This document shows, piece after piece, positions 9,241 to 64,000 of a stretch of DNA of 64,000 nucleotides (position 1 is its first letter; every line of letters starts with the position of its first letter). The notes beneath the pieces are model-generated. The model did no database searches. It was given only the letters and a program-made list of their open reading frames with translations, and was not told the origin of the DNA. The stretch lies in NCBI RefSeq assembly GCF_008831285.2, contig NC_045144.1:13567858-13631857 (forward strand). Direction: 5' to 3'. The DNA comes from Nymphaea colorata. Taxonomy: Eukaryota > Streptophyta > Magnoliopsida > Nymphaeales > Nymphaeaceae. The position numbers and the translations under genes were made by a program.

Positions 9241-10382
9241 CAATCATGTGACAAATTTCATTTTAACATATATTAAGATTGCAGGAGCTAAGATAAGTTT
9301 CTTTGTTTCTTCCTTTTTGCTCCCCTTGTTGTCCTTGCTTTTCTAGAGTACGTGCATGAGACAATCCACCTTAATTTTGTTTGCTTCCCCTATAATTTTG
9401 CAGACACTTGAAAATTTTAAATGCATAAGACCTTATTAAGTGTGCACGAGAGATTAGACCACTTACCGTGTCATGTTGATAACATGGGAAGGCATGTTCT
9501 TACTAGTTTTGTTAAAGGGCATTTTCATAATTTTACGGTAAGTGTTTTCTCTGTTGTATCCCACTTTGGTCCTTATAAGAAGCCTACCATTCTTTAGCCC
9601 ATAACACATGGTCCTTGTTGGGGCCATAACATCTAACCTGTTGTGATAACATTCTTGTGTTTCTCTTTGTTTCAATTTTTTTTAAAAGAAACACACATAG
9701 TTTCTGACTTTTTATCTTTAGTCGAATGCGCTTCTCACACTAGAGTCGACCTTGGTAGGAATTGTCATGTTGCATTAATGGCAAATTTTATTTATCTTGA
9801 ACTTTATTTTTCCTTCATCAAACATGGCTCATTTTTCTCAAAATTTTATTTTTTGCCAACAAACACTGTTCAAAAACAGATTAAACTCTTTTTCTTTTAG
9901 GCAATAAAAGGACTTTGAGTCGAGGTCATAGGTTCAGTTTAGTTATGTGTTAGGAGTTTAAAAATTAAGCAAATGTTTTATATGATTGAAAAGGGTGACT
10001 CCTCCCAATGGTAATTAAAAACAAAAGGGAAAAAGTTACCTCCTGCATGCCAAGTAAACTTTTTAAACGCTGCCTGATCTGCAGCACGAAGTTGGAATTG
10101 AGTCAACTGTCAAGTCTCATCTCGGTGTCGTGTGGCGGGCTTTTTTTTCTTTTCTCCATTTATCTCTACAGATCTAGGCCTTGCGATGGCTCTCTTGCAG
10201 TTTTTCCTTTTTTTTTCAATTGGATCATCCTCATGCAGTCTATTGGACCTTGTTTGCTGATCACTGCTTACAACCATCCAAATTTGCAATTTCGTAGGTA
10301 TTTGGGGCAACTTTTCAGAAGCATCTTTGGGTGCACCTGAAACAGAGGATTTCTCCAACTGATTTCATTTGTGGAGAGGAAC
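9241..10382. other. Upstream region of TNL-1
   Basis: AT-rich DNA with pyrimidine tracts (10139-10160, 10200-10220) ahead of the TNL-1 start codon. No clear TATA box or other element could be assigned. Confidence 0.4.
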
Positions 10383-10930
10383 ATGCCTCTCTATTCTTCA
10401 AGCCGAAAGAGGGTTAGGGAGGAAAAAGCTGGGCCTTCTAGGATTGCTTCTTCTTCTAATGGTGGTGGCTTTAATTTCAACATGTTTTTGAGTTTCAGAG
10501 GCAAAGACACAAGAGGCCACTTCACCAGCCATCTCTACAAGGAGCTGAACCAACGCTGTATATCTGCCTTCTTCGACAGTGTGGGCCTCCAAAAGGGTGA
10601 AAGGATCAGCGAGATCTTGGGATACATGAAGGCATCCCAGGTTGTCATGTCCATCTTGTCCAAGAACTACGCCAAATCGAAATGGTGTCTGCTCGAGGCT
10701 GCCAAGATGCTGGAAATTCACGAAGATGATAAGGAGAATAAGTGGATTATACCTGTCTTTCTTGATGTTTCTCCTTCTGACATCAAAGAAGATAGTGGAT
10801 CATTTCAAGTTTCTATTACAGAAAACCAGAAGAAGGTTAATTTGGACAGGGAACAGACTGAAAAGTACAGATGCGTCTTGAGATCAATAGGGCCAATTGC
10901 TGGATACTCTCTCATAACTGACGCAAATGG
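10383..10930 (+). CDS. TNL-1 exon 1, TIR domain
   Basis: Intact 548-base exon. The start chosen is ATG at 10383; an in-frame GTG at 10371 is not a plausible plant start. A short basic leader (SSRKRVREEK) precedes the TIR, which opens at FNMFLSFRGKDTRGHF (about residues 33-48). Later blocks are AFFDSVGLQKGERI, SILSKNYAKSKWCLLEAAKM and IIPVFLDVSPSD. The catalytic glutamate of TIR NADases, in the WCLxE motif, is present. The donor is at 10931 (aaatgg|gtatgc), in phase 2, the same position and phase as in TNL-2. A GT-rich tract follows within the intron. By itself this could encode a TIR-only protein ending in intron sequence. Confidence 0.88.
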
Positions 10931-11111
10931 GTATGCAATAAGCATGTGCCTCTGTTTATGTGTGTATGTGTGTGTGTGTCAGAAAGGGCAAATAAAATGG
11001 AGAATCATCCTTACCTTATTTGTTTGCTTCACATGAGAAGGTCTCTGTAATAATCTGTGAGTGTTTTATGGCTTACTCTTACCATATAGAATATCACTTG
11101 GCTGCATGCAG

Positions 11112-12221
11112 GGATGAAGCAAGGCTATGCACCATGATATGTGACCGGATTTCGAGCATATTGAAGCAGGTACTGCTTGGTGTGCAACCTATTGGGATTG
11201 ATTCTCAAATAAATGAGGTGATGATTAGGTTGGAAGGAGAAACCAATGGCATTAACATAGTTGGAATTTGTGGAAAAGGTGGCATTGGGAAGACAGCGAT
11301 TGCAATGACCATCTTTGATAAGCTCTCTCATGAATTCAGATACACCAGCTTCATCTCAGACATCCGGGAAGAAGCCAAGAAGCACAATGGGATTTGCTTG
11401 CCACAAGCCAAGCTCATTTCGGATATCTCAAAAGAGACAAGTGTGGTTATAGACACGGTTAATAATGGAATTAGTGCGATCAGACGAAAATTTGGATGCA
11501 AGAAAGTGCTCATAGTTCTAGATGACATTGATGACACTAAACAACTTGATGCATTGGTAGGTGACCAAGTACATGTAAAACGAGAGCATGTATTTGGTGC
11601 AGGAAGTAAGATTATTATCACTACAAGGAACAGAGCCCCACTGATTGCTCATGGTTTAGAAATTTACTACCCCAAGGAGCTAAAATATCCTCAGTCACTT
11701 AAATTATTTTGTCTCCATGCCTTTAAAGTTAGCCCACCAACATCAGAATTTCTTGGCTTGTCAGAGAAGGTTGTCAAAGTTGCAGGAGGCCTGCCATTAG
11801 CTCTAAAAGTATTTGGGTCACATTTTTCCTCAATAAATAGAGTTAGAGAAGTATGGGAGGTTGAGTTGGGAAAATTGCAAAGACATTCACATCAAAAAGT
11901 TCTTGAAAGACTTAAAATAAGCTATGATGGGTTGGAGCTTACACAGAAGTGCGTATTTTTGGATGTAGCATGTTTCCTCATTGGGTCAAGTAAAGAGGAA
12001 GCATTATTCTTCTGGGAAGATCACTATGCTGCAGATGATGCAATTAATGCTCTTGAAAGCAAGTCTCTTCTCACCATGGATGTTGATAATCGGTTCAGAA
12101 TGCATGGCTGAAATCAGGTATGGGAAGATGGATAGTTAAAGAAGCAGGCAATCTCAATCCTCACATGTACAGCAGACTTTGGGATAGGGATGATGTATCT
12201 AAGGTATTGGAGGATACAAAG
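11112..12221 (+). CDS. TNL-1 exon 2, NB-ARC domain (one frameshift)
   Basis: The acceptor gcatgcag|ggatgaa joins in frame to exon 1. NB-ARC motifs in order: P-loop GICGKGGIGKTAIA, kinase-2 KKVLIVLDDIDD, RNBS-B GSKIIITTRN, GLPL GGLPLALKVFGSHF, RNBS-D CVFLDVACFLIG, and MHD read as MHG. Directly after FRMHG the frame hits TGA at 12109-12111. The next frame continues the expected sequence (MGRWIVKEAGNL, YSRLWDRDDVSKVLED) to a donor at 12222. The exon is 1110 bases, one fewer than needed to reach the phase-0 end, which fits a single-base loss. If translated as is, it gives a TIR-NBS protein cut at the MHD motif. Confidence 0.87.
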
Positions 12222-13969
12222 GTAAGGCCTGAATTTGTTCTTATTACATTTCTATCATGGTGTTGGCATTGTAACTAATTATCTCTGACTCTCTTGGTGT
12301 CTTACTCAAGCTTAGGTAATAGAGGAGCAATTTTAGTTTACTGATGTCAATTTGTTCAAGACCCCACAATTTGGTCTAATGGCCTTTGTTCATTAGCCTT
12401 GAACCAAACCGTTTACTTTGTGATTAGGACATTGTCTTTCGACATTATTTTCCACTCAAGTCAATCCATAGTGTTACTATTCTGCAAGCTCTTTGAGTCC
12501 TGCTTAATTTGTTATCACATCTTCTGCTCTTTAACTTTTGCCTTCATAGTTAATCGTGATTCATTCTTTTTTACTTAGACTTTAGGTCCTCATTGAATTT
12601 TTGCGTCTCACACCATGAGAATTATGGTATCTTTATAATAATTGAGTGTAATCTTCAGAAGTTAGTAGCCCCCAAATGGATGCCAATATTGCTGCAAGTT
12701 ATGCCACTATTTGTGTGGTAGTGTCTACTATAACTGTAATAAGTGACAAATCTTGGCAATTGCTGTTTTAGTGATTTTATCTTAGTGGTTCCTATCTTAT
12801 CGGCTATTTTTCAAAACCATCTTTTTCATTTGGAGTTTTCCAAATCCAGCCTTGGACACACCCATCCTTTTATACTTCCAAGATGGCTTAAGGTAAGAAG
12901 TTAACATGGGATTGAAAATAGAGCAGAAGGATACCTTCGCCGTCAACTGTAACCTAATACATAAGATGAGTTTTTTGCATATGTGAAACTTTCTGAAGAC
13001 TAACCATATAATTTGCATGTTCAAAAAAATTCACAATTGTTATATAAAATTATTTCTTTTTGCATGTATATATAATTTCGTAATCCAAAAAATTGGACTA
13101 ATGATTTTGAGAATCCTATACAATATAAAAATATTATTAAAGTTGATTGTGAAGTTGTTTTGGGTATCAGCACTATTTAGTCAGCACTATTTAGTTAGTT
13201 TGGTAAAAAAAAACTCGTCTATAACCTTTTCTGTTCAATTTTATGTATAATCAGGTCATCCCTATCCTTTATTTATGAATTGTCTTTAAAGGGCAAAACT
13301 GTCGGTTGATTAGATTTTCCAACTTAATATTCCTTTACCAAAGTTCATGGATAAAAACCTATGGATTTTAATCCATGGATTGATTACCAAGAGATAGTTG
13401 TTCATAGTGTCTAGCGTATGATTGGCAGAGATTAAAATCCTTAAAATATTGTCTACTGTCTGATGGTATTGAATTAAAATTCATAGACAAAAAAAAAATA
13501 TCTGTTGCAAAGCCTGGCCTACACGGTAAGCTTTAAGTGGTATTAATTATTAAAAGCTAACTATTGAAGCAGGAGGTCACTTGATTTATGTACCATTTCT
13601 TCTATTGTTTCCGGTTTAAAGGCGGGTTCTATTGTTTCTGGTTTAAAGGCCCACCAAGTTTGGAAGAAAAGGAAAGACTGATTCTGCCAAATGTCGGAGA
13701 TTCAAAAAACACGTTTCTCACTTGATTGCATATTTCTAGAATGATTTTCTTGGCTGATAAGGTGGTGGAACGTCCTCAAGGATCAGATACTGGGCTCTTG
13801 AAAGAACAACGATAAACTGATTCTGAAGTTCTAAATGTTTTATCATTTCAAAATTTCGTATATTAACTTCAAGCAAGAAAAGAAAGGAGGAAAGCAATTA
13901 ATACTGAAGACCAAGCCATCGAGCCTTGTGAACCTGTTCAGCAGCTGAGAGCACGTTTCAAACATTGAG

Positions 13970-19000: not shown

Positions 19001-19381
19001 TTTGACATTTGCAATCGGATTTGGATGTCAAATGACATTTGCAAATAGTTTGTACTCGTAATCTTGCATTGGGATTTGTGTCACAAGTTAAATTCATGAT
19101 TTGAATCTAAATTGTTCTTTAGAATCAAAAGTGGCTTTGAAATTGCAAATTTTCAAAATTCTTTTGTGAAATTTTCATATTGTTTCAATTTTGAAACAAT
19201 AGATGTGTGTGTGAAAAATTTGGGGTGTTATCAATATGATTGCCTAAGAATGTTTCAGCTGCAACATTTTGATCTGCAGGGTTCCATAGATGTGTGTGTG
19301 TGTGTCATAAGCTCACGGAAGGGTGAATTATTAAAGACAGAAAAGTGCCTGACCAACAAAATTTCTTCCGTTTTTCTATAG

Positions 19382-19685
19382 GGAAATAAGTCCGTCCAAG
19401 GTATCATTCTCAATACAAAGTATCATTCTCAATACAAACGAAGGATGTGACATTGATTTGAGTAGTAAGGCGTTCGAGGACATGACCAACTTAAGATTAC
19501 TTCGTCACAATTTTGTCAGCTTCGAGGAGTTTGACATTAATCACTTTCCTATGTAACTAAAATGGTTAAAATGGAGGGGATGTGAGCTGGAGCTGGCGAC
19601 TCTGCTTTTTGGTCGCAGGTTTAAGAACCTTGTTATCCTTAACCTATCACAAAGTAACATAAAGCAATTACAATGGGAATTGAAG
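19382..19685 (+). CDS. TNL-1 exon 3, first LRR segment (duplication and stop)
   Basis: Counterpart of TNL-2 exon 3: start GNKSVQGIILNT, then SSKAFEDMTNLRLL, WLKWRGCEL and LVILNLSQSNIKQL, typical of the first TNL LRRs. A perfect 19-bp tandem duplication (gtatcattctcaatacaaa at 19401-19419 and 19420-19438) shifts the frame. With one copy removed, the frame continues as expected until a TAA at 19554-19556, where a lysine codon before WLKW is expected. The donor ttgaag|gttagg lies at 19686. Confidence 0.8.
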
Positions 19686-19779
19686 GTTAGGTTGCCAACG
19701 TATATATATTTCCATATGCACTTTTTACTTTTAAATTTTAGGTTTCATAACTTGACCTTACTGTAATAGTTTTTGCCAG

Positions 19780-20214
19780 AAGTTTTACAGGTTGAAGGTC
19801 CTTGATCTTTCACACTGTTGCCAACTGAAATGCACACCTAATTTTGATTGCATCCTCCAACTAGAGAAATTGCTCCTCAATGGCTGTAGTGCATTGAATG
19901 AGATCGATGCATCCATTTGTCGTCTTACAAAGTTAACCATCCTAAGTATGAAGGACTGCACATCTTTGGAACAGCTGCCCAACCATAGTGGATTGCGACA
20001 AGATGGAAAATGTTCAATGTCTAACATGTCCAAACTTGAGGAACTCAATTTACAAGGCTGTGGACAGCTTCAATCTCTTCCTCCACAGCCATCATCTTTA
20101 AAAAGATTGCTCCTAAGAGGTTGCAAGATGTTGAAAGTTGTTCATGTGTTTGAAAATTTGGAATCCATAGAACTAGTAGACATGGATTGATGTGAAGGAA
20201 TCAAGCATATCATG
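19780..20214 (+). CDS. TNL-1 exon 4, LRR region
   Basis: The acceptor tttttgccag opens KFYRLKVLDLSHC, matching exon 4 of TNL-2. LRR units follow (LEKLLLNGCSALNEIDASIC, LTILSMKDCTSLEQLP, LEELNLQGCGQLQSLP, LKRLLLRGC). The exon is shorter than in TNL-2, with fewer repeats. A TGA at 20188-20190 interrupts VDMD-CEGIKHI. The expected exon end at 20214 gives 145 whole codons, but the donor reads ATGAGC instead of GTGAGC, so splicing is probably lost as well. Confidence 0.78.
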
Positions 20215-20631
20215 ATGAGCATAATTTTTCATCTCTCTCTCCCTCTCTTCTCTAGCTTTAGCACATTTGTTCCAGACGTGCTCATTATGATAAGAAGTCA
20301 TTGCAGGGGAAGACTTTCACACATTTAAAGGAGTCAAGTGTTTCTGGAAGTAAAACATGGTGAAAAACTTTTCTTTTGTAGTTCCAATTTCTTTCCCAAG
20401 AGTGGCAAGGAAGTATTTTAGGAGGCCGCAATTATATTTCTAAAAATTTCTACGGAGGCCTAAAGTATACTTTTCAAAATTTTTAAAGGGACCAAACCAA
20501 AACTTTTATAAATTATAGCCAGTGATTTTTTTTTTTTTTAAAAATCAAGGTGGTGCCATGACCCCTGCCAGCCCTTGGTTCTTCCCCTGTTTCCCAAGTA
20601 GCCCATTGTTTAAGCATTTGCCATTTTGCAG

Positions 20632-21303
20632 GGATCTGGCAATTTAAAGCATGTCTACATTAAAGTCCGTGTTAAGGATATCAAAGACAATCAAGTAATA
20701 TATGATACCATACTTGTGTTTATCCTGAAATAGACCACGAAATTGATGAAAGTTGGTGCTATTCTATTTCTCTTTCCGAGTATGATGATATATATTTTTT
20801 CCATTGCCTTTCTGGGTATCGATGACCGATAACTTCCTTCTAAAAGGCATTCACATTCGGCTTAGAAGTAACAACAAATGGAGCAGAAATCATCTAAACG
20901 AGATTCTTGTAGATGAAAATTTAACCAATCCAAGGAGGACGACTGCTGAGCAAATCCAACCTTCACCATCAATGCTATTACAAGTATCAGAGCCTACATC
21001 TGGATATTGTACATTGGTATTTGATGTAGCATTCAGCTATGCAGAGGATGATGTCAATGCAAATTTTATTGACAATCTATTCAAGGCCTTAGAAGAGCGT
21101 GAGATCTGCATATTTAAAGGTGTAGATGGTGAAAGTAAGAGGGGAAAGGTAGACGAACCACTTAAATGCATTGAAAGATAACTGCATACCCATCTTCTCG
21201 AAGTGCTTGTCTCAGTCAAAGTGGTGCCTTCATTCAGTTGCCTAGATGGTTGAATGTAGGAAGTTGATTATACCAGTATATTTTCAGGTCGATCCTTTCC
21301 CAT
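20632..21303 (+). pseudogene. TNL-1 exon 5: post-LRR domain fused to a second, degenerate TIR
   Basis: The acceptor ccattttgcag opens GSGNLKHVYIKVRVKD, a beta-rich segment like the C-terminal jelly-roll (C-JID) domain of TNLs, continuing in shifted frames through DESWCYSISLSEYDD and FHCLSGYR. From 20804 one open frame runs from the end of that domain (IHIRLRSNNKWSRNHL, EQIQPSPSMLL) directly into VFDVAFSYAEDDVNANFIDN at 21017, a TIR start, with LFKALEEREICIF and EPLKCIE. After a frameshift near 21178 the TIR continues as CIPIFSKCLSQSKWCL and RKLIIPVYFQVDP. The residue matching the catalytic Glu is Ser (WCLHS). At least three frameshifts or stops are present. Confidence 0.72.
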
Positions 21304-22280
21304 GAAAATCAGGGTGGGGGATTGCCCCGCCAATTACCCTTTCATTTATTGATAGTGAAGAACGAAAGAATGGACAGCAGAAAACAAAATACACGCCTAA
21401 GAGCAGATTAATCTCCCTCCTATACACTTCGAGAAATGGCATAGCTCTGCATCTGGTCCATCAAGAAAGGTTTCTGAACCACCATACCATCCTGCCATAA
21501 CATGCCAGCACATACTCTAATGCCATCCATGGACTTAGCAACTATTTCAATTACCCAACTACCTGTGGGCCTTCTAATCCGGAATAGCGAGAATGAAAAA
21601 ATAATGTAAAGAAAATTTAACGTGCTTCAGATATTATCTACGTCCATGGTACTCTGTCATCAAATCGATGATAAGTTATCTTTGATTGCCTTGGATTTTA
21701 TACAAGAGATGGATCAGTTACATTATTTGAATTTTGAATTGCCTGCAGCCTTATTTAGAGGGTTTTGTTTTCATGATAGTTTCTGCACGCGTTCATTGCC
21801 ACAGTCTTCTTCCTGATTATACGTGTGGTGTCAAATCCTTTGCTTGATCATGTGTTACCTTCTTTGGGGAGTGATCTTGCATTATCTTCTTTCCAAGCTT
21901 CACACATGGTGAGTTGCTGTGACTGTGGTCATGTACAAATTATCTTCTTTCCAAGATTGACACATGGTGAGTTGCATGGTGAGTTGTTATCAAAGAAAAC
22001 ATTTGTCTTTAGCTAAATCTTGGTTTCTTTCTGAACATCGTCAGACCAAAATTGATGGACAAGCATCTCACAGCAGTAATGCCAAACATCTTATTTGTCA
22101 CTCTTGATGAATTTCTCATTCTTACTGTGCTTGGCCTGATTTTGCAGCTATCAAATTCTCCACATCATGATATTGAAGCAAAGCCTCCAACAGACGCAAC
22201 TCTTTACATGAGAACATTCTTCGATGTCAGCATAATGAAAAATCTTGTCGTGAGACTAACAATCCCAAACTAGGAACCAA
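21304..22280. other. Repeat-like DNA after TNL-1, with a possible copia LTR scrap
   Basis: The segment at about 21590-21650 (agaaaatttaacgtgcttca) matches the inner edge of the copia-1 LTRs, so part of a solo LTR may lie at 21590-22000. Its ends could not be fixed. 21880-21990 contains the short repeated phrase 'ttctttccaag.ttgacacatggtgagttg'. Confidence 0.3.
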
Positions 22281-22840
22281 TGAACTTACAGATGCAAGAA
22301 GAAACAATAGAAGTAAAGAGAAGATGTTGGTGGTCTTTTCTTGCTCTTTTACACAGAGGGCATCTTGTCGCAAGAGGAAGACCTAATCTCTGAAGCCTAG
22401 ATTCAGTTAGTAGTCTACGGAAACTACTAATGCATGCAAACCAGCTTGCACTAAAGATAATTTTGGGCTTCCAAATCAGATTACACAGTTCCATAATAAT
22501 TTCTTTCATCCTTACTCTACACCATATTTGTTTTCTAGATTAAATAGGCTGCTAACTATCCTTCCACCTCAAATTACCAGGACCTTGAGTGAATCTCATC
22601 CGGCATGCATTCCTTACAACATGAAATTTCAAGAGAGCAGAGCTTTCTCTATGCCGATGAATAGCCTTTGACACTGACAAACCCAGTTCAGCATCTACAA
22701 GATCACGATAATCTGTAGGGATTGATTTGATCAAGATAACACCTTGTCTAGGTTCTAGCCAAAATTTGACTATATTTCCCTATTTAAATCCAGCCAATGA
22801 CTGTCCATGCATTCATTATATTTCTGAATAAAGGAGAGGA
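22281..22840 (-). pseudogene. LINE relic, C-terminal zinc-knuckle part
   Basis: The minus strand reads LIWKPKIIFSASWFACIS, then RLQRLGLPLATRCPLCKR and HQHLLF (22480-22290). This is the zf-RVT tail of plant L1 ORF2 (family pattern IWKxKxPPKISFFxW...RGxxLxSxCxLC...HLFxxC). Upstream, NIVKFWLEPRQGVILI (about 22775) matches the GNGxxIRFWxDxW block. Only this end of the element is recognised. Confidence 0.65.
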
Positions 22841-24235
22841 TTAGTTCCAGTCTTACCACCACAAGTGTCCTTTAATTTCTTGAATTTAAGCCTGCAAATA
22901 GAGGAACATAGGTTCGTATCTGAGAACACTTTGCATCCTATAAAGCCAAAAGCCAAACTTGGCCAAATTTGCCATACATTCAATCCTTTAGATGTAAGAG
23001 ATGAGACTGGAGATTTTGGAACATATATTTCCAATCATAAAAACAAAGAACAAAGAGAGATGGTGGAAGATTGGAGAAAAACATTGGAAATTATCATTAA
23101 AAGATGCCATCATCCACGTATCTATGAAATAAACTGGTCTGTTTCCTCTCTCCTTCTCCTTCTGCCATATGTTACTCTACATATCCTCTAGGTTGTCATA
23201 TTTTTCAAGATAATTTGTGAAATTATTTATTATACTAAAGCCAGCATAGTTGGCAACATTTGACTTAGACTTAGATCGCCTAAAGACTGGGTCAAGAGTT
23301 AGAGAGTTGACTTGGTGACTTGGCTGGGTTATGTCATAAATTCTTATGGTGCATTTTTTCAATAAATAGATGAAGAAGGTAAGTCTACCAGAACTTCATG
23401 TTTGATAGTCTAATAAACTAAAATTGAATAAAATATAGTATGAGTATTTGTGTATGCGTAAAGTTTGTCATATTTCACACTTCAAAAAATAACAAACTTT
23501 TGATAGTGGTTCTCTCTCTATCTCTCACACACATACATAAGGTACATACATAGCCATCAATGAAGACAAATGTGAACTGTGACTTGGTTTCATGGTTGAC
23601 AAATTCATCGATGTGAGTTGTCTGAGTTGGCTAGGATTATCCATTTATTGGGTCACAACCAGGGCTTGCCAAGTCAGTTACGTTCATCAACTAATTACAT
23701 TGTTCATTTTTATTGTGTGGTGTGCTTCAACTTGTATGCTGGTATTCCCTCTCTTACTGTACAGGGAGTTGATGCCATGATAACTCAAAATGAAAACTGG
23801 TCACTTGTCAGACCCGACTTCACCTGTTGTGCCAACCCTCTGGCCATGAGCCCTATCCTCCTCTCGTAACTGCGAGAAGATATGCTTTATAAAATGTTTT
23901 CAAACTAAAGTTTTTCATTCTAAACAAACTTTGGTTTTACATTATATTTTCCTGAAATCTCTCACTGGCCCTAGCTGGGCATACGGGAAACCTATAAGGC
24001 TGGTTATGTAAGCCCACTGAATCCAAAGATTACCCGTTTTGTGCCTCATAGAAGCAAACCCCCAGATTCTCTCAGCTTTGATCTCTCTCTATTTGTTCTC
24101 TTGTTTCAGTTGCTTCTACCTGCTGTTTGGGTGCTTTTACCACTCGTGCCCCCATCCTGAAGACTCCGTTGGTAAACTTGCTCAGGAAACATAGAATGGA
24201 TCCAAGGCACCATTCTGCTGCAAAAAGTCTAACAG
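22841..24235. other. Intergenic, mostly unassigned
   Basis: An open frame of 108 codons at 22865-23191 (+) has no recognised family. 23600-24235 could be the LTR belonging to the PBS at 24236, because it ends near CA just before that site, but its start is not defined. Confidence 0.3.
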
Positions 24236-26199: not shown

Positions 26200-27890
26200 A
26201 TACCATCTTTGGTTTTCATTACATATGCAATTCTTTGAATTTGTCCATTCTCTGTACAAATAGATTGGAACTTGAATTACTAAAGTTTGGTGAAGGATTC
26301 GGCGGAACTCCCCATTTCAACCAAGAAACTTCTGTTTGCACTTTTTAGTCCAAACAACAACGGAGTTTATATTTAGTTTTTGCTTTATACTAGCAAAGAC
26401 TACCATTAGATAAGTATTTACTCATCGTGTAATTGGTCCAAATTGACATGCCCTGCAACACCCAGAACAACAAATAAATCATGTTGCCTTGTTAGAAACA
26501 TTTAGATATAAAATTCCAACACCATCTTCTTTATAAGGAAAGCCAAGAGAACTCCAACTTAAAATATGAAATTTACATAAATTCGAGTTGTCTTCTCATA
26601 AGAAGCTATTGCACTATCTCTCAATCATTCTATCACCTACCTTTGAAATTTTAAAAGCCATCATCCAATAACCAACTCTTTGATGGATTACATGTTTAAT
26701 TAAACAAATTTTTCCTGTATAAAATACAAGATGGCCTTTCCAAAACTGCAAGATGTGATACTACCTTCTTCACAAGTGATTCACAGCTTCCCACATAAAT
26801 CTTTCTTTGAAAAGTGGTAGTCCAAGGTATTGCACAGACAATTTTTCTTCCTTCCAACCTAAACACTCAAGCAATAGTTTCCTGTGATTGTCATTAACTT
26901 TAAATAATATGACAGGTTTTTTTTGTCAATTAACTCTTAGCGTTGCCTTGAGCTCCATCTCTACTAGGATATTCTTTATACAACTAATAGAGTTTAGATC
27001 TAGTTTACAAACCTTTATGACATCAAGTGCAAAGAATTGACCTGCTAAGATGGAGCTTAAGTTTTCAAGCTTTTAGCACTTTAACATTTGCTGGCCACCT
27101 CCCTCCTTAGTCATCATGAAAAATCTCATAATAATAATTAATAAGAATGGGGACAACAGATCCCCTTGTCTAATATTTTTATCTACATCAAAGAAAGAAC
27201 TTTCATTACCTTCAATTAGCAGAGGAAGACTAGTTGTGGAGATGCATTTAAGGACCTAGTTTCTTTAAGGCTAATATGAGAAACTCTCAAACTATACAAT
27301 CATATGCTTTAGTAATGTCAAGCTTTAACATCATTGAACCATCCCTACTGTTTTGTAAGGAATTAACAAGCTTAAGGACCACAAGAATTTGTTTGTGGAT
27401 TTTTCTGCCTGGTAAAAATTTACCTTCATCATCAGCAATAACCTAAGCAAGATAAATCTCATTCTAACTACCATTATCTTTGCAATATTTTTGTAAAGGC
27501 AATTGAAAAGTGCAATTGGCCTAAAATTTTTAATGCTTACAGTACAATGAAATTGGGGAACCAATGTAAGTGAAAACAATTAATACTCTTAACTACTTTA
27601 ACTGTTTTGAAAAAATCAGCAATAACATCCATCATATCTTCACCGATTATGTGCCAATGACAAACCCATCAGGATCTAGTGTCTTCCCATTTTTCATGTT
27701 AAAAACAGCTCTCATAACCTCATCTTTACTCACAGGCCTCAATAGAAATTCATTCTCCACTGAAGTAATAGTGGGGCCAGCTTTCAAATTATCAAGCATA
27801 TCACATGTAGAAGAAAGGTTGACGTAAAGTAGCGTAAAACAATCTTTACATAGCTCATAAATCTTATTAGGGGTAGAAGCAACAACACCA
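26200..27890 (-). pseudogene. LINE (L1-type) reverse transcriptase, relic
   Basis: The minus strand, high to low: SKDEVMRAVFNMKNGK and DPDGF (about 27770-27660), VSIKNFRPIALFNCLYKNIAKIM (27560-27470; family IKDFRPISLCNxxYKIIAK), IRQGDLLSPFLL (about 27170), LSVQYLGLPLFKERF (about 26840), GKICLIKHVI (about 26700) and FPYKEDGVGILYLN (about 26520). This is the RT and downstream linker of a plant L1 ORF2 in the correct order. Stops and frame changes are frequent. The catalytic FxDD block is not preserved well enough to point to. Confidence 0.75.
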
Positions 27891-30490
27891 ATAACTATAA
27901 ATACGCTTATTTAGGGACTGAATTTGAAAGAGAAAAATGGGGAACTGATTTTTTTTTCCTTTTTTGTGAATAGGTATTCTTTCGGATGAACTGCCTCGTC
28001 TTTCCTCATCCTTGTTTTGTTGTCATCATGCAGTCGGTGTTTTGTTTATTCTTCACAGAACGTCTGCCTCGGTTTGTTGGATGATACCCTAGAAGCTACC
28101 TTTGCCCCCAGGTTTTAGGGTTCAGGGCTTGCTTCTAGGAACTAAGTGGCAGTGGTGCCTACAGTCTAAGAAAGCAGCACCCATCCAAATCAAGCCGATA
28201 ATCTACCACTTACACTGCAACCGGCTTGACCGTTATGTTACACCCTTTGTCTGAGCTTGTTGAACATGTCAAATGAGTTGTATATGAGTATAATACTGCT
28301 CCTATTCGGAATCTATTTACTAATCCTGAGCCCACTTTCGAATATAAATTTTCATTAGATCAAAATCCAATTACTGAACCAAAATCTGAAATCCAAATTA
28401 GAATGAGATCCATAAAGCATTTTTGGCATAAGCATCGCCTGGATCGAAATTCTTCTGTGTTAAAGTTGTACAGATCCGACAGCATTAGGTTAGCTGTCAG
28501 ATTTGAAATTCAAACCAAACCCCAATGGAAAAAAGCAGGCCTGATGGACATATGTCCAACCATGAAGCTTATCATTTACATCCATAAACCCTGCTCTTTT
28601 TGTCTCTCCGGCATAGAGAAATGATGGAAACGTGGATGGCGAAGAATAATGGAACATTCTGAAGGCTACATATATTTTTAAGTTTTAATTTACCATACCA
28701 TCGTTCAAGTTAATTCCAGGTTGACCCCAGAATTACATGTGAACAGATTAATTTAATTGGACATGCAAATAATTAAGTTAGTATACAGTTCTATAAAATG
28801 CATGTGGAAATTTGGAAACTAATGTCACAAACATAGTTATCAGGAAAATACCAGTGGGTTTTTTCTCAAGTATTTTTCAGTAAAGTTTTTTTTCTTTTGA
28901 AAACTTTTTGGAAAAATCACAAGATTTTCGTGATATTCTGTTTTACTTTTTTTCCATAAATTTGGCCATATTAGTGAAAATCTTGAAATATCCGTTACAG
29001 TGGTAACAAATATTGATATATTTATAGAAATCCTATATATTATCAATACAAATAAGTTAGGAAATAATTCCACAAGAGTTTACCAAAATTTTATTTGCAA
29101 CAGCAAGATCTCATTTAATAACTGAAATGTACCTCTGAGACTTGACCTGGGAGGTGATTCGAAAAAGAACCTGCAAGTAAATGGAAGCTTAGCAACAGAG
29201 AACAAGAATCAATGTCCTTTAATTGATTTACAAGGATGATATATGGCCACTGACTTTTGGTGCCCTTTACCAAAAGCAAGACTTAAATTACGCGTACGTC
29301 CACTTTATTTGCAAAAGTTAATTAAATGACAAAAACACATTTATCACAAATCAACAAAGGACGTAATCTGATCAAACCCATCATCAAAATTAAGAAATGA
29401 GGATCTAAAATGAAGCACTCTTTTTTTTGTCTACATTTATGAACTTTTCTTAAACATGTTTGCATCTTTTTCAAGAAACAAATTATGAAAGAATCAGGAG
29501 CTTAGAAAGCGAAACAGTAGGCATATGTGCGTAAAGTTTAATTTACGACATGCATACTGTTCATAGACCACTCCTTTTAGACAAAGTCTCTCTCTCTCTC
29601 TCTCTCTTTCTATATATATATATATATAACTCTTAAAGGTCAACTTAAATATTTTTCATTACGTTAAACAAATATGAACTTTTAGTTTATTTATAATGAG
29701 ACGTAATGGTCGTAAAACTATATTCATTCATGTTATTCTGTTGTTTACCTTGTTAACACATGGGAAATTTATGGGGTGAATTTGTTTGTTCAGACATGTG
29801 GTAGGATTGATTATGGGCTTTTGGCTTGTAAGATTCCATGTTCCGTTTTGGTTGATAGAGAAGGCCTGTGCAACTGTGCTCCTTTTCTAGTGGAAGGAGT
29901 CAGAAGATCCTAGACGTAAGACATCATGCAATGAAATGCATGTTCAGAGCTATGCCGCGCCCTCTTTTCCCTCTATGAGAAAGGTGGAGTAGACTTTGTT
30001 AAACTTTTAAGTGCAGTAAAGCCTTTCTGATTTACTTGCCCAAGTAAATTCCTTGTTGAAGGAATTAAGATCCAAGTATCACTAGTTTCCACGGGAAAAA
30101 TTATGCTATCTCTTTGAATGGAGAAGCTGATAAGCTTTTGTCGATTAATGGAGAGGAGGCATCCTCACTGAAACGTTAAGACATTCACAATCATATCAGG
30201 AAGGACTAGAAAGACCCATTGAGATGTGCATGTTTTAAAAGAAGCTCCCAACTATGGATTGAATCCAGAGATTTGGGGTATTACTAGCGGCAAGATGCCC
30301 AGTTTGAAAGGGATGCAGAAACAGTTGACCAAAGTCCAGTGTTTTGTGGGCCGGAAGTTCAATATTAATATTCTTACCAACTCTCCTTGCAAGAAAGGAT
30401 GAAGTGGTTGTGGAAGTGGAAGTTTTGCATGCTTTTGGTCAAGGAACTTGTGGAAAGAAAGAAATGCGGGCTTACATGATAATGACTGTG
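27891..30490. other. Intergenic, nothing assigned
   Basis: AT-rich DNA. A (CT)n tract followed by (AT)n lies at about 29588-29629. No coding or transposon signature recognised. Confidence 0.4.
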
Positions 30491-56910: not shown

Positions 56911-58084
56911 CATGAGTTTGTTCTTCAGAGCATCACAAAGGTCCCTGCAGCCATCCATATTTAGTTGTTTCAAGGACTTCAATGTTTCAAGACCAGGAAC
57001 ATCGACAAGGCACAGGCAAGAAGTGAGGTCCAGTTCTTCCAATTTTTTCAAGTTTGAAACATCTAAATACCTTGCAAAGCATCAGAGTTGTAGACATAAA
57101 GCTCCACAAGAGAGGAGGGGAGTGTAGGAATGGACTCTAGCTGGTGGCAATGCACTAACGAAAGATGCCATAGCTGGGAATGGTTTCAGATATTTGATGG
57201 TAGCTTGCAGAAATTTCCATGATCTAAATTCAAGGTTTTCAGCAATGATGGCTCTCCAAAATCATAGAGTGCATCCTCAAGCCATGTGCACTTACTAGCC
57301 GACAGCAGGTTATATGAAAGAATGATGAAGAAAGCATGGTGAGTCCACTTACTGATAAGGATTTCAACCTTGTAGAAATTTCAAAATCTATAGGAACTTC
57401 TTTGAGATCAGTTCCTGTCAGGTCTACATGAACTAGGCCTGTCAATTTCCTTGCAGAGTCAGGCAAAGCATTGATATTTTCACAATCTCGTATAGACAAT
57501 TACTCGAGTTGGTCACAATCACCAATGGACTTTGGCAGTTCCTGGATTGGAGTTTCGTCTAACCTTAGCTGCCTCAAACTCTTTGCCTCACCAATCGAGT
57601 AGGGCAATTCAGAGAGTGACCTGCAATATGAAACATCTAGCAATTCAAGATTTGCCAAATGTTGGATGGTCTCTGGTATCCCTTCTATTCTGGTTCCCTT
57701 TATCAAAAGCTCCTTTAAAGATTCAAGCCTTCCAATTGATTCGGGTAATTTTTTTATGCTCGTTGAGTCAAGAATGAGCTCAGTCAATGATTCCATGCCT
57801 CCAAGTTTCTCTGGTAAAATAGAAAGTCTCTTGCAGTCATAAAGGTTAAGCTTTTTAAGACAGCTTAATTTACAAATTTCATATGGTAGTTCCTTTAATC
57901 TGATACAGCGCCCCATGGTTAAGATACCCAAGCTTTTCAGATGACCGATAGATTTATCAATTTTAGCCTGCCTAACACAACCATCAAGTACCAACTTCAC
58001 TAGTTCTGGCAAACAGGAAAAACTTGGAGTAGCCACAAGGTGAATACAATTACTGAGATCAAGAACCTTCATTCTGCTATATGT
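56911..58084 (-). CDS. TNL-2 exon 4, LRR region (broken in its second half)
   Basis: Acceptor gacttgcag; starts TYSRMKVLDLSNCIHL. At least nine LRR units are readable (LVKLVLDGC, LGILTMGRC, LKKLNLYDC, LTELILDSTSIKKLPESIG, LKELLIKGTRIEGIP, LELLDVSYCRSLSELP, LRQLRLDETPIQELPKSIG, LSIRDCENINALP, LVHVDLTGTDLKEVP). TAA at 57502-57500 interrupts CDQLE/LSIRDC. Further on come a 2-base-type shift near 57311, TGA at 57188-57186 and a shift near 57070. The last piece, LKKLEELDLTSCLCLVDVP to ALKNKLM, ends at donor gtactt (56910). The LRR would set effector specificity, but the protein is cut after about 195 codons of this exon. Confidence 0.83.
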
Positions 58085-58373
58085 CTGCAAGTCCATTTCA
58101 CTTTCATGAGCAAAAAGCTATCATGATCATGCAAATTGATTGTCTATGTATGCCAGAACATGTAGATGTGCCTTATAGATTTATGTCTATACATAGCCAT
58201 GCATGCACATGCATATGATCACTAGTATGTAAAACTTCAAAGAATTGTTTTCATGAACCACACCGAAAATAGGATCCTACAAAATCCATATTGAGAAACA
58301 AAAATTATTAAACTAGTAATGTGCTTTGAAGGAAGAAAATGGATAGAAAAGGAAGGAAATTCACAAAACTAAC

Positions 58374-58715
58374 CTTCCCTCTTGGTTGTGGTTGTTTTCT
58401 CCATATATATCTGATGTTATTCAGAACAACATCTATCATCCCTCTCATATTCCAATCTTTAGTGATCATGCTTGAAGATAAGTTGAGGACAACTATTTTT
58501 TCAAGGCCAAAGTCTTCTGATAATGACTTCAATGGACATCCTCTCCATTCCAGCCATTTTAGTTTCTTAGGGAAACAATCAAATTTACCCTGTATGTGAG
58601 TGTTATTGACATGAAGCAATCTGAGATTTAACATTTTCTTAAAGGCCTTGGTGCTGACATGCGTGTTGCTTCCCTCTTTAGAGTTGAAAACAATGCCTTC
58701 AATCTTCCTTGATCC
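58374..58715 (-). CDS. TNL-2 exon 3, first LRR segment
   Basis: 342 bases, 114 whole codons, open throughout. Acceptor taatttcag; starts GSRKIEGIVFNSKEGS, then STKAFKKMLNLRLLHVN, LKWLEWRGCPLKSLSEDFG, KIVVLNLSSSMI and KQPQPRGK to donor gggaag|gttag. Same position and phase as TNL-1 exon 3, but without the duplication and stop found there. Confidence 0.85.
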
Positions 58716-59702
58716 CTGAAATTAGATGAAGGAAAGATCTCATTATGACACTTGGCTAGGAAGCTTGTTTAACACATAACCTGGAAGAGCAGAACTTGTC
58801 CTAATGGGATTCAGTTAACTTTAACTGAGCCTGCATCCTTCTAGTAAAGTTTTGAAGTTCAATGCCTGAAAACAGAGTATAGACAATCCCAACCAGGACA
58901 AAATGAACTCAACTACTTTATTACTAAATTGTCATGAATATCACCAAGATTTCGAAAAATATCATAATGTTACGCAAAACTTTTAAAACCATGATAATCT
59001 CAACATCATTCAAGAACTTCAAATATGACCTATTGAAGACACCACAAAGCTAAGGTAAAATTGCAACTTGCAACATATAATACCAAAACATCTGAATATC
59101 ATATCATAAAATTTTACATTCTATTAACCAGGCAACAAGGATAGGTTACCTAAAATAATTGAACAAACTCATAAGGAAAACCAGGCAACAAGGATAGGTT
59201 ACCTAAAATAATTGAACAAACTCATAAGGAATTCTGGGTACCTTTGAATTCAGACCATTAAGAACAAAAGGTCAGAAGTGAATGCAAGCAACAGCTTTTG
59301 ACTGAATGTATTGCCATGTATTCTCCTTACCATCCGACAAATCACATGGCACCAATCTCAGGTATGTTTAATCCAAATTTTCTATAATGAGTTTAAGATC
59401 AATTTCAAGACTACTTAAAAAGTACAAGAAAGAAATAAAGTTTCATAGGTGTTTCAGAGGATCTTTTTCATCTTCTTTTAGAACAGAGTTTCAATAGGAG
59501 TTTAAGAGATCTTTTTCATCTTCGTTTAGGAAATTCGAGAAGTGCATGCACTGAAGATACAACTAAATATGTGGTCATTTTGTGGCCTTTTCCTTAGGAC
59601 TTTTACAGTCAACTTATCTCTTGCATTGGGAGGTAAATCGTACTTCAACTATTTGATACAATATTTAAGATCAAAGAAAGGAGAAAATGGAGGAGAACTG
59701 AC
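58716..59702 (-). other. TNL-2 intron 2, with a 53-bp tandem duplication
   Basis: 987 bases, AT-rich. Two head-to-tail copies of a 53-bp unit (aaccaggcaacaaggatagg...) start at 59126 and 59179. A second small duplication (agatctttttcatcttc) lies at about 59455-59530. Confidence 0.7.
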
Positions 59703-60808
59703 CTCGGCATTCTTTAACACATCCAGTATCTCATCAGGATCCCACAACCTGCTACGCTTTCCAGGATCTGAACGTCCTTCTTGTAACACAATCTCTCTGG
59801 CCATATCTTGAATTTGGTCATGCATTTCAAACTCATCTGTTAAACTGCTGATCTTAATAAGAGACTTGTGTATAAGAGTTCTAATTGTTGCAACAGGGTA
59901 AAGTCTGCTGTCCTTCCACATATGAAAGGCATTTTCTCTGCCCTTTCCCACGAAAAAGCAAGCAATATCTAGCAGTATACTCTTTTCTGCATCATCCAGC
60001 TTATCATAACTTATTTTCAATCTGCCGAATATATCTTTGTCTTGAAACTCTTGCAGCTTTCCAAGCATCTCTGCCCAGTCTTCATGATCTCTAATATCAA
60101 AAAAATGGGACCCAAAAATTTGTAGGGTTAAAGGTAGTCATTGTTAACACAACTTTCTTAGATAGTTTTTCATATTCCTTTGCTCGTTTGTCTCCCATAA
60201 AGGCGTGATAATTGAACAACTGAAGTGATTGTACTGCACTTAATGTTTTTGGTTTGTAAATTTCACTGTTCGTCACTTGGTGCTGAAGTAGCACTTCTTC
60301 CTCTCTGGTTGTGACAATTATCCTGCTTCCTGGACCAAACCAGTCTCGCCTAGCTGCTAATACATTGAGTTGATTTAAATGATTGACATTGTCAAGAATG
60401 AGCAGAACTTTCTTACGAGAAATTCTCCTGCTGATCATGTTAATTCCATGTGCAGTGCTGCTTATAGCGATATCATCGGTTTTCAAAAGGTCTCTAATGA
60501 GCTGGGTCTGCAACGTAACAAGCCCACTGGGACTTGGGGAAATTTCTGCAATGTCTGAAACGAAACTGCTTCCATCAAAAGTAAGAAATATCTCATTGTA
60601 CACGGCCTTGGCAATTGTTGTCTTTCCTATCCCTCCTTCTCCGCAGATACCAATAATGCGAACATCATCTGCTTCAATATCCAACAGCTTCATCACGGCC
60701 TTTACACGAGGCTGCATTCCCACAGGATGTGCTGCGACATCAAGTGGGATCTTGTTTACTTCACTAAGAACCCTCTTGACAACAACTTGAATAAGCTTTG
60801 CCTCATGC
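59703..60808 (-). CDS. TNL-2 exon 2, NB-ARC domain (one frameshift)
   Basis: Starts HEAKLIQVVVKRVLSEV, with P-loop GICGEGGIGKTTIAKAVYN, kinase-2 KKVLLILDNVNH (second Asp replaced by Asn), RNBS-B GSRIIVTTREEEVL, then SLQLFNYHAF and KLSKKVVLT. At about 60140 the bases for the AGG of AGGLPL are reduced, shifting the frame. The next frame resumes at LPLTLQIFGSHFFDIRDHED and runs open through FGRLKISYDKLDDAEKSILL, DIACFFVGKG, MHDQIQDMAREIV and SRLWDPDEILDVLKN to a donor at 59702. The MHD motif is intact. As it stands the product would end just after the lesion (NFWVPFF), lacking the ARC regions. Confidence 0.88.
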
Positions 60809-61608
60809 CTGCCATGTTTGGGGTTGCAAAGCAATTATGAAATATGACAAGTACCACAGGGTGGTGAGTGCTAGAAATACTTTAATGGACTTCATTTCTG
60901 CTATATTAGCAGGAAAAGTTGCAGTATCTTTTCCCTTTAAACTTAAGCATATTGCAGAGTGCAATTATGAGTAAGCCTTTCTCTTAAGGAAGCATAATGG
61001 AACACTCGGTTCGATCGTCCAACCACAAGAGAGAGGTCACACTACTGTTTGTTAGTGATAATTGAAGGCCCATCTTTCAATTTCATGAGCCAGTGACCAG
61101 TGTCACATTTACTTGAAAAAAGACATTTTGCGGTTGGCCCAATTAATGGACTGGCCTGTTCCTTGAGCTAAGCTGAGGTGAGTTCGAGTTCCTTGATTCG
61201 TTTCATCTGAGCTCATGCTAGTTGCTAATGGTGGACTTTGAGCTTGATTTGAGTTTGAGACAAAGCCGTATAAAGGCTGAGCAGTCTCAGTTAGACCCCG
61301 CGTACCCATGTTTGGCATTTATACATTCAACACGAAAACCGCCCTTCAGAAAATCACCTTTACAGGAACGGCTGCTTTGCCAAAAGGTCTTTTTTTTTTT
61401 CTATTAGGAGGCAACATACCTCCATCTGAATCGTGCTTAAATTAATCCGGCTTTGATGTTTTTGTTCACACTCGGCAAAGGGAGAAAAGGGGACCCCGGA
61501 ACCAGTAAATTTGCTTTAAAAGATGTTCTTTTGTCATGCTCTTCATGATTTTGCATATTTCAGATGTGAAAAGAAAATAAAAAATACGATTTTCAAAACT
61601 TATTTTTT

Positions 61609-62034
61609 TACAAGAACGATCTTTTTGTCTAAAAGAAAATCAATTTGATGCGATACCCTAAATATTTTCATTTATAAAACATGCATGTTTGAAGTACATT
61701 ATAAATTCAAGCAGTTATTTGAAAATCTGAAATGTCAAATGGTAATCTAAAAATAGGAATTTTTTTTTTTTACAAGAACGACGCAATACCCTAAATATTT
61801 TCATTTGTAAAACCTTTTTTGGCGAAGTACATTATAAATTCAAGCAGTTATTTGAAAATCTGAAATGTCAAATGGTAATCTAAAAATAGGTAAAAAAAAT
61901 TTTCTACAAGAACGATGCAATACCCTAAATGTTTTCATTTATAAAACCTTTTTCGGTGAAGTACATTATAAATTCAAGCAGTTATTAGAAAATCTGAAAT
62001 GTCAAATGGTAATCTAAAAATAGGTAGCCGCTAT
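61609..62034. repeat. Three tandem copies of a ~134-bp unit in TNL-2 intron 1
   Basis: Copies start tacaagaacga at 61609, 61771 and 61905 and share gtacattataaattcaagca and gaaatgtcaaatggtaatct. The first copy has about 28 extra bases. High similarity suggests a fairly recent expansion. Confidence 0.9.
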
Positions 62035-62176
62035 TTATAAGTTTCCATTCCTATTTATTCAGGATGCATTTGGTAAGTTACAATTGTGATTGGAGAAGTT
62101 AGAATGTTGATGTAAAGCCTAGTTTGATCATGAAAATATAACTTTCCTTCGAGGAGACACGATTTTGTGTGGATGT

Positions 62177-62187
62177 TATATATATAT

Positions 62188-62267
<80 letters not shown>
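62177..62267. repeat. Compound (TA)n(GA)n microsatellite beside a splice donor
   Basis: About 57 bases of TA repeat followed by about 32 bases of GA repeat on the + strand. On the gene's strand this is CT repeat, then TA repeat, starting about 6 bases after the exon 1 donor. Confidence 0.92.
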
Positions 62268-62272
<5 letters not shown>

Positions 62273-62273
62273 C

Positions 62274-62779
62274 CCCTGGGTCTCTGTCTTCAGATCGTAT
62301 CCAGAAACCTCCCCTGCTCTCCTCAGGGCTTGCCTCCATTCCTTCGTCTTCGCCTTCAACTCTTCATCCTCATCGTGCTTCCTGAACGCAGCTTCGAATG
62401 GACCCTTGACATTCCTCACCTCCCGAGGCTCCACGTCGTAGAAGATGGGGAGCACCAACCTCCCGCACGCCACGATCTTGGCGATCTCCACCAGACACCA
62501 TTTTGATTCAGCGTAGCCCTTGGAGAAGATGGGTATGAAGATCTCAGAGCCTTGAATGAATCTGAACAGCTCCTCCACCTTTTTGCCCTTATCCAAGCCC
62601 TGACTGTCTATGAAGACATTTACGCCTCGCTGCTTCAGTGCTTCGTAGAGGTGGCCGGAGAAGCCCTTCCGAGTGTCCTCCCCCCTGAAGCTCAGGAACA
62701 CGTCGAAATCGAACCGGGGACGCTTTGAAGACGACGGATTCAGAGGCTGTGGTTCGTCGGCAGTCTTCCTCTTCGTCAT
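62274..62779 (-). CDS. TNL-2 exon 1, TIR domain
   Basis: ATG at 62779 (MTKRKTADEPQPLNPSSSKR) starts an intact 506-base exon; the frame is open further upstream but has no ATG there. The TIR runs from FDFDVFLSFRGEDTRKGF (residue about 22) through GVNVFIDSQGLDKGKKVEEL, IFIPIFSKGYAESKWCLVEI and LVLPIFYDVEPREV to RRAGEVSGYDLKTETQG. The catalytic glutamate (WCLVE) is present. The donor cagg|gtaccc at 62273 is in phase 2 as in TNL-1. A long (CT)n then (TA)n tract starts a few bases past the donor. Confidence 0.9.
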
Positions 62780-64000
62780 TCTCTCCCCTCGACCGAATTG
62801 CTTCTTTTCAGAAGATTGGTTTTCCTGATATCCAGTGACCAAGCAATTGCCGTCGACTTTCGACTTTCTTGCTCGTCAACACCTTGAAAGATGAAAAACC
62901 ATTAGTTTCTCTTCTCTTCTCCAAATTTATTAGCGGTATCAAAATTCACTGCGGGCTTCGGGCCCTTGATTTTTTGTTATAATTGCACTGACGAATGAGC
63001 AGGCACGATCTAATTGGGAGATGTGAAGCTATAAGGTAGTTGGTGAGAGATTATTTAAATGAAGAACAATCTTGTTGACCTTTTCACATGCATGAACAGG
63101 CAACACATCTGAATTTGATTACCTATTGCATTTAGGAAACTATTCTTTACGCTGTCGGGAAAGTTTTAATAATGCTCTTTGACCTGATCACCTTGATCCA
63201 AAGTCCACTGTTCTGTCTTTGTAGAACTTGAAAATGATGCCTACATTAAGATTTTCTTTTACAGGTTAGTTTTATCAGTTCTATAAGTGAATCATTTTGC
63301 CAATTTGTAAATTTCAAATTCTTTAATTAATCTGCAAATAATTAAATAATTCAGAACTCATTAAGAATATGGGTTGGTACTGTTAAAATGCAAATATATT
63401 CTACCACTAGTAAAAAATAACATTCTGCAAATTGATATCACTAACTGAAATTTGGGTTAATGCTCATCATAAGAGGACTAAGAACCCCTAACTTTAGGCA
63501 AGTTTGAAGTTTATTAGTCGAACCTCTTAAATTTCTGCATATATATGAATATTTGTCCATAATAGTTAGTTTTTCTGAGATCTAAATTACCTAGGCGAAC
63601 TATTTCTGTTTGTTAGTGGAGAAAAGTTATCTAACTGGAGTCCAGAAGCATCGTCGTAGTTGGTTATGGTTTTGTTCATTTATTAGGGGCAAAACTATCA
63701 TTTTTCTGACTCAATAATTAATTCAACAAAAATAGTCTTATGGATGTTTTGGATTAACTCTGAAAACTTCAGTAGGTTGCTACGATATTGGAAAATTCAT
63801 GCATGTTTCATGTCTATCACCAAATCTTTCGGCCCAATTTAAAAATTCCCTTGAAAACAAAAGCTTGTATAGATTTGCCCAAGCTTGACCAGCCTATGTC
63901 ACAACACATATCCGTACTGGAGCAAACACAATAGGTATTGGCAGATTCAATTAGAAGTTATGCAAATTAATTTTAACGCCCAATTCAAACAAAAATTCTA
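62780..64000. other. Upstream region of TNL-2 and AT-rich intergenic DNA
   Basis: The promoter of TNL-2 should lie here, but no clear TATA box or other motif could be assigned. No gene or transposon recognised. Confidence 0.4.

Follow-up and report, generated by a model that had tools for sequence, protein, structure and literature searches.

The window analysed here is a stretch of 64,000 nucleotides (C7:13567858-13631857) of the Nymphaea colorata genome, which was searched as a whole (407.8 Mb in 783 contigs). On its plus strand, a TIR, an NB-ARC and an LRR follow one another in order between 10371 and 20247. The N-terminal TIR exon (TIR1, 10371-10934) is 75.5% identical over 188 amino acids to TIR1 of a relative on contig C2, called gene B below, and keeps the catalytic glutamate (Glu) column in SKWCLLEAAKM. 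NB-ARC1 lies at 11098-12257 (PF00931, E 5.8e-21) and shows a match of 73.5% over 336 amino acids and then, in another frame, one of 72% over 46 amino acids; the frame break is near 12105-12120, in the MHD region. The first LRR exon (19353-19766) is interrupted in translation by an in-frame stop at 19554-19556, and its counterpart in gene B is open. LRR1 (19756-20247) is 70.7% identical to gene B over 164 amino acids.

Further along the plus strand, tblastn with the C2 relatives places a first piece of the post-LRR domain at 20262-20398 (frames 3 and 2) and its middle pieces at 20632-20816 (frames 1 and 3). The open reading frame at 20789-21181, with 130 amino acids and a stop (including ...TLVFDVAFSYAEDD...), covers the end of the post-LRR domain, a conserved linker and the start of a second TIR (TIR2), as seen in the alignment of seven copies of this junction. 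The middle part of TIR2 lies in the +3 frame at 21183-21299, where it bears CIPIFSK, SKWCL and IIPVYFQVDP, is 79% identical to gene B over 39 amino acids and, by eye, has Ser in place of the catalytic Glu (SKWCLHS). The end of TIR2 (FNPLDVRDETGDFGTYISNHK...CHH, 22985-23134) is found beyond an insertion, at 58-60% identity over 50 amino acids to two other C2 relatives, genes A and C; this last piece is absent from the first-pass annotation. Both observations of the first-pass annotation hold, namely that one open frame runs from the post-LRR domain into a TIR start and that the TIR carries on in another frame with the three motifs above. The open frame is not due to chance, since 20632-21299 matches, in pieces, the post-LRR and TIR exons of the three C2 relatives at 42-79% identity, with a best combined E of 6e-46; the 130-residue piece alone matched no Pfam family with the E threshold set at 1. 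The coding frame of the window copy is disrupted by frameshifts, stops and the insertion, and the copy is a pseudogene of a TNL which cannot encode the fused protein. The window also contains a second TNL (TIR, NB-ARC and LRR) on the opposite strand at 56956-62788, whose TIR is sister to the TIR at C7:22898150 with branches of 0.03 and 0.055, and, on the minus strand at 27073-27910, fragments resembling by eye a LINE-type reverse transcriptase (IRQGDLLSPFL).

When the genome was searched with the 130-residue peptide, six further matches were obtained, three on C7 with 95-98% identity and three on C2 with 46-52% identity. All four C7 copies, including the window copy, are broken and have in common the insertion inside TIR2, which is about 1.7 kb long (21300-22984 in the window; both ends are approximate, with ATCCTTT on either side by eye). 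Pieces of it recur elsewhere in the genome, with at least 50 matches when the copies themselves are counted. An intron was considered and rejected, as the splice AG/GT...TTTAG/AT would, by eye, hit a stop immediately. Six other places on C7 (22275173, 22332596, 22647345, 23203326, 24156868 and 24420345) are 84-89% identical to the final portion of the insertion, and they may be additional remnants of this gene family. In the fourth copy (C7:13543174-13543563, minus strand), the post-LRR domain and TIR2 share one frame, with stops. A second NB-ARC (NB2) was found neither beside the window copy (window 23191-57000), nor in the 10-kb slices around the other three C7 copies, nor near any C7 copy among the matches listed in the genome search.

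The C2 relatives at 3.69-3.75 Mb are better kept. Genes A, B and C each carry the post-LRR domain and TIR2 within a single open frame, of 375, 396 and 519 amino acids, respectively, counting read-through of the flanking introns, and NB2 and a second LRR (LRR2) are located downstream of TIR2 in all three. Both halves were found complete in gene B only. The exons identified there have open frames across about 10 kb, from TIR1 (3707626) to LRR2 (3717615), in the order TIR1, NB1, first LRR exon, LRR1, post-LRR domain with TIR2, NB2, an LRR piece and LRR2. In gene C, NB2 is at 3735903 and LRR2 at 3738600; the distance from TIR2 to NB2 is 6.3 kb, compared with 1.2-1.3 kb in A and B, and this gap is probably an insertion. 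Upstream of LRR1 in gene A, just the first LRR exon and a 36-residue piece of NB1 were found within 3680001-3696730. A fourth NB2-LRR2 copy, D, is located at 3745881-3748659, with no TIR match within 3735001-3752000. The NB2 of gene B (C2:3713973-3715427) contains two consecutive winged-helix stretches, that of gene C (C2:3735903-3737333) aligns with it across both, and the MHD motif differs by eye among the NB2 copies (MND, MKD, MDD and MHD).

By eye, the TIR2 donors (AG/GT) and the NB2 acceptors (CAG/G) of A, B and C are of compatible phase, and this phase resembles that between TIR1 and NB1 of B. Because NB2 and LRR2 come after TIR2 in three C2 relatives, the sequences indicate that the ancestral design was most likely a double TNL (TNL-TNL), beyond a mere TNL with an added TIR. 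An ancestral TIR-NBS-LRR-(C-JID)-TIR protein had been proposed in the first-pass annotation. The in-frame TIR behind the post-LRR domain stands, being open in A, B and C and present in the seven-copy junction, but the protein would not end at this TIR in the C2 relatives, where NB2 and LRR2 come next, and the C-JID label lacks sequence support.

On the label, the genome search with PF20160 (C-JID) gave zero matches, none of the eight post-LRR members scanned matched it, and the profile of the post-LRR domain found no C-JID in the PDB, so that the label receives no sequence support from any of the three. The zero count agrees with a survey of 305 angiosperm genomes which reports C-JID as confined to eudicots (PMC12787737); our control genomes gave no PF20160 match either. 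A search with the post-LRR domain of gene A gave 22 matches, counted as 19 loci, consisting of A, B, C, the four C7 copies, one on C11 at 9006 kb, ten cousins that were fetched, and C7:11656411. Three cousins on C11 stop 7-8 amino acids past the post-LRR match. Relatives which end before any TIR, one of the refuting conditions named in the first-pass annotation, do exist, but these are distant single TNLs, with 27-38% identity over that domain.

The other cousins are seven single TNLs on C2 at 3.33-3.47 Mb (L016-L022). Six of them continue for 81-134 amino acids to a stop with introns read through, and L017 has a long open stretch behind the post-LRR domain. The seven have a conserved post-LRR tail of about 90-114 amino acids, which ends near SWYEQRHGTRLPRQ; in two of the seven, the beginning of the tail can be aligned with TIR2. 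The possibility that these tails are degenerate TIRs was rejected because the profile comparison gave no support, with probabilities of 0.3% against 30 TIRs and 0.6% against TIR2 (controls: 0.7% against NB-ARC and 0.2% against LRR), and none of the profiles tried matched the tail. Downstream of the four that were followed (L016, L017, L019 and L022), another LRR and another post-LRR-like stretch can be seen by eye.

The junction between the post-LRR domain and TIR2 aligns in seven copies (A, B, C and the four on C7) with one 18-nt internal gap, and one fusion therefore explains all seven. Both parts are on the same strand and in the same frame, not in separate head-to-head genes, and in A, B and C no stop lies between them. 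Inspection of the seven linkers by eye showed no conserved GT...AG pair with the spacing of an intron. The linker of gene B contains no Met, while an in-frame ATG is present in the linkers of A, C and the C7 copies. Selection was evaluated by dN/dS (Nei-Gojobori, with 95% intervals by codon bootstrap). Within 30 codons on either side of the junction, the values are 0.47 (0.26-0.84) for A-B, 0.30 (0.14-0.59) for B-C and 0.53 (0.18-3.1) for A-C; for the linker, they are 0.31 (0.10-0.94), 0.31 (0.10-1.16) and 0.85 (0-1.8), respectively.

The identity of TIR2 as a TIR domain is clear in the three C2 relatives, with Pfam PF01582 E values of 3.2e-16, 7.5e-19 and 1.1e-16. The TIR2 exon of gene A has the L6 TIR as its best PDB match (E 7.5e-16), and comparison of the three TIR2s with 30 TIRs of the genome gave a profile probability of 100 (E 7.9e-42). 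On the other hand, the catalytic Glu, expected after SKWCL in an NADase-competent TIR, is replaced by Ser in all seven copies, three on C2 and four, by eye, on C7. Glu occupies this position in all three TIR1s, in the one C11 TIR and in 30 of the 31 other TIRs sampled, which consist of 30 picked non-randomly by similarity and position plus the TIR on the minus strand of the window. The RG of SFRG is also gone in the three TIR2s and retained in 28 of the 31 others. Both SH residues are present in the three TIR1s, absent in the three TIR2s and variable among the other TIRs. The RRS1 TIR retains SH, and since none of the three TIR2s does, an RRS1-like TIR-TIR contact is doubtful for TIR2. Judging by the better-kept relatives, this pattern suggests that TIR2 has retained the shape of the domain and lost the enzyme residue. 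A duplicated signalling module, one of the two roles put forward in the first-pass annotation, is thus unlikely, because the catalytic Glu is absent from TIR2 in seven of seven copies.

For TIR2, dN/dS is 0.42 (0.23-0.72) for A-B, 0.39 (0.22-0.66) for B-C and 0.77 (0.35-2.2) for A-C. The values of about 0.4 in the first two comparisons mean that TIR2 was constrained along the split of B from A and C; the recent split of A and C is uninformative. The post-LRR domain gave 0.48, 0.45 and 0.50 for A-B, B-C and A-C, respectively, with all three intervals below 1. NB2 ranges from 0.59 to 0.76 over six pairs (five of the six intervals below 1) and LRR2 from 0.73 to 0.84 in the three comparisons among A, B and D, with C left out and all three intervals including 1. 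Between B and the window, the values are 0.26 for TIR1 and 0.34 for NB1, and silent sites are saturated in TIR1 of B-C.

In the trees, TIR2 of A, B and C forms a clade with support of 100/100 on a long branch, and so does NB2 of A-D. In the best NB tree, built from 19 of the 20 NB loci fetched (L067 had no suitable frame and was left out), NB2 and the NB1 of its own family group together with support of 84/77, which is not firm. Holding TIR1 and TIR2 as one clade gave p-AU 0.039, a borderline value with long branches. A locus on C11 (9005585-9007105, minus strand) was also considered. The first exon of a TNL starts there no more than about 100 bases from the decayed post-LRR domain belonging to an upstream TNL, in a different frame from it, and the place illustrates how two TNLs may come to abut. 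When held as a clade with TIR2 it gave p-AU 0.21, and with NB2, 0.048. It was rejected as an eighth in-frame fusion because its frame differs, it may have its own Met, and Glu is retained.

The TNLTNL architecture is already known, as published surveys record it in grape (alongside TNLT in Medicago, grape and poplar; PMC3782705), in a Brassica/Arabidopsis subgroup (PMC4008172) and in a single sunflower case (PMC6115920). As presented in these surveys, the entries are annotation counts, whereas the present analysis follows the junction base by base through seven copies; a single fusion origin, the loss of Glu from TIR2 and measured selective constraint are added. In the literature searched, no description of a TNLTNL in a water lily was found, leaving aside papers which merely name Nymphaea (e.g. 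PMC9806590). Arabidopsis RPP2a, a TNTNL which functions in resistance (PMC3782705) and is paired with RPP2b, likewise has TIR-NB modules in tandem within a single TNL protein (PMC3782705, PMC12856790), but it is described as repeating TIR-NB before a single LRR, while here a complete TNL and a post-LRR domain precede the second TIR. Cotton GhRVD1 is a TNL with two TIRs which are both N-terminal, adjacent and required for cell death (PMC10170703), unlike the second TIR here, which stands behind the LRR without Glu.

The pairs RPS4/RRS1 and CHS3/CSA1 come closer. In RPS4/RRS1, a Glu-bearing and a Glu-less TIR work together (PMC12856790, PMC7282519), similar to the residues of TIR1 and TIR2 here, the TIR of RRS1 being the one without the catalytic Glu (PMC7282519). 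The two pairs are described as separate head-to-head genes (PMC12856790), in contrast to the head-to-tail arrangement in one frame found here, and TIR2 differs from them in also having neither the SH residues nor the RG of SFRG. About 90% of plant TIRs retain Glu, and those without it appear to be sensor TNLs acting through a paired TNL (PMC7282519). From this we infer, as the best reading of the C2 genes, a fused executor-sensor TNL pair, and the residues fit a Glu-less TIR (TIR2, Ser) beside a Glu-bearing one (TIR1). Absence of Glu is no proof of inertness, as one TNL without it is reported to have still conferred insect resistance (PMC12856790).

According to this reading, the window locus would be a decayed member of a double-TNL family of single origin which works like a sensor-executor pair, and we put the chance of this at about even. 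The family layout would be TIR1-NB1-LRR1-postLRR-TIR2-NB2-LRR2, presumably created once, when the last exon of one TNL was joined in frame with the TNL lying downstream of it, giving a putative single-chain sensor-executor pair. Its second half (an inert TIR2 with NB2 and LRR2) would sense or keep the first half inactive, and upon recognition the TIR1 subunits would assemble as an NAD+-cleaving enzyme. The stronger version, in which the protein is a natural single-chain TNL pair with executor and sensor fixed at 1:1, and the dead TIR2 acts within the chain as the partner of TIR1 or as a brake on it, maintained by selection since a single fusion before the C2 and C7 families split, is put forward tentatively, and it could well turn out otherwise.

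Among the alternatives, the one that survives best, though still unlikely, is that the genes are an unproductive by-product, i.e., decaying fusions in a fast-changing TNL cluster which are inactive as fused proteins. The four broken C7 copies fit it, as do the small pieces left of the N-terminal half of A, the long gap before NB2 in C, the lack of a TIR match around D in the stretch searched, and A-C values indistinguishable from neutral. Against it are the open exons of gene B over its whole length and the constraint on TIR2 and the junction in the B-A and B-C comparisons; nevertheless, genes once under constraint could have begun to decay recently. Less probable still is the other role suggested in the first-pass annotation, an integrated decoy, in which TIR2 would bait effectors that attack TIRs, with everything else in the second half being incidental. 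TIR2 is conserved though Glu-less, its place after the LRR is a common one for integrated domains, and the C7 copies carry TIR2 without NB2 in the stretches searched. That absence says nothing on function, however, because the C7 copies are pseudogenes, and the open NB2 and LRR2 on C2, with the dN/dS of NB2, argue against an incidental second half. The least likely alternative, two adjacent TNL genes with the upstream one ending after the post-LRR domain and TIR2 beginning its own gene, can draw on the in-frame ATG in the linkers of A, C and the C7 copies and on the C11 locus, which demonstrates that such close juxtaposition does occur (in another frame, with a possible own Met and an intact Glu), but it is opposed by the stop-free passage in A, B and C, the linker of B without Met, the lack by eye of a conserved intron-size GT...AG pair in seven copies, and dN/dS below 1 around the junction in two of three comparisons.

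Paired TNLs are known to form hetero-oligomers, and how they associate to form the NAD+ site between two TIRs is posed as an open question in Box 2 of the same article (PMC12856790). If the executor-sensor reading is true, a fused pair at a fixed 1:1 ratio with one Glu-bearing and one Glu-less TIR would permit this question to be tested with one protein. The family also illustrates a route by which a TNL can gain a complete second receptor when one gene boundary is lost, after which the appended TIR loses its enzyme residue and stays recognisable as a domain.
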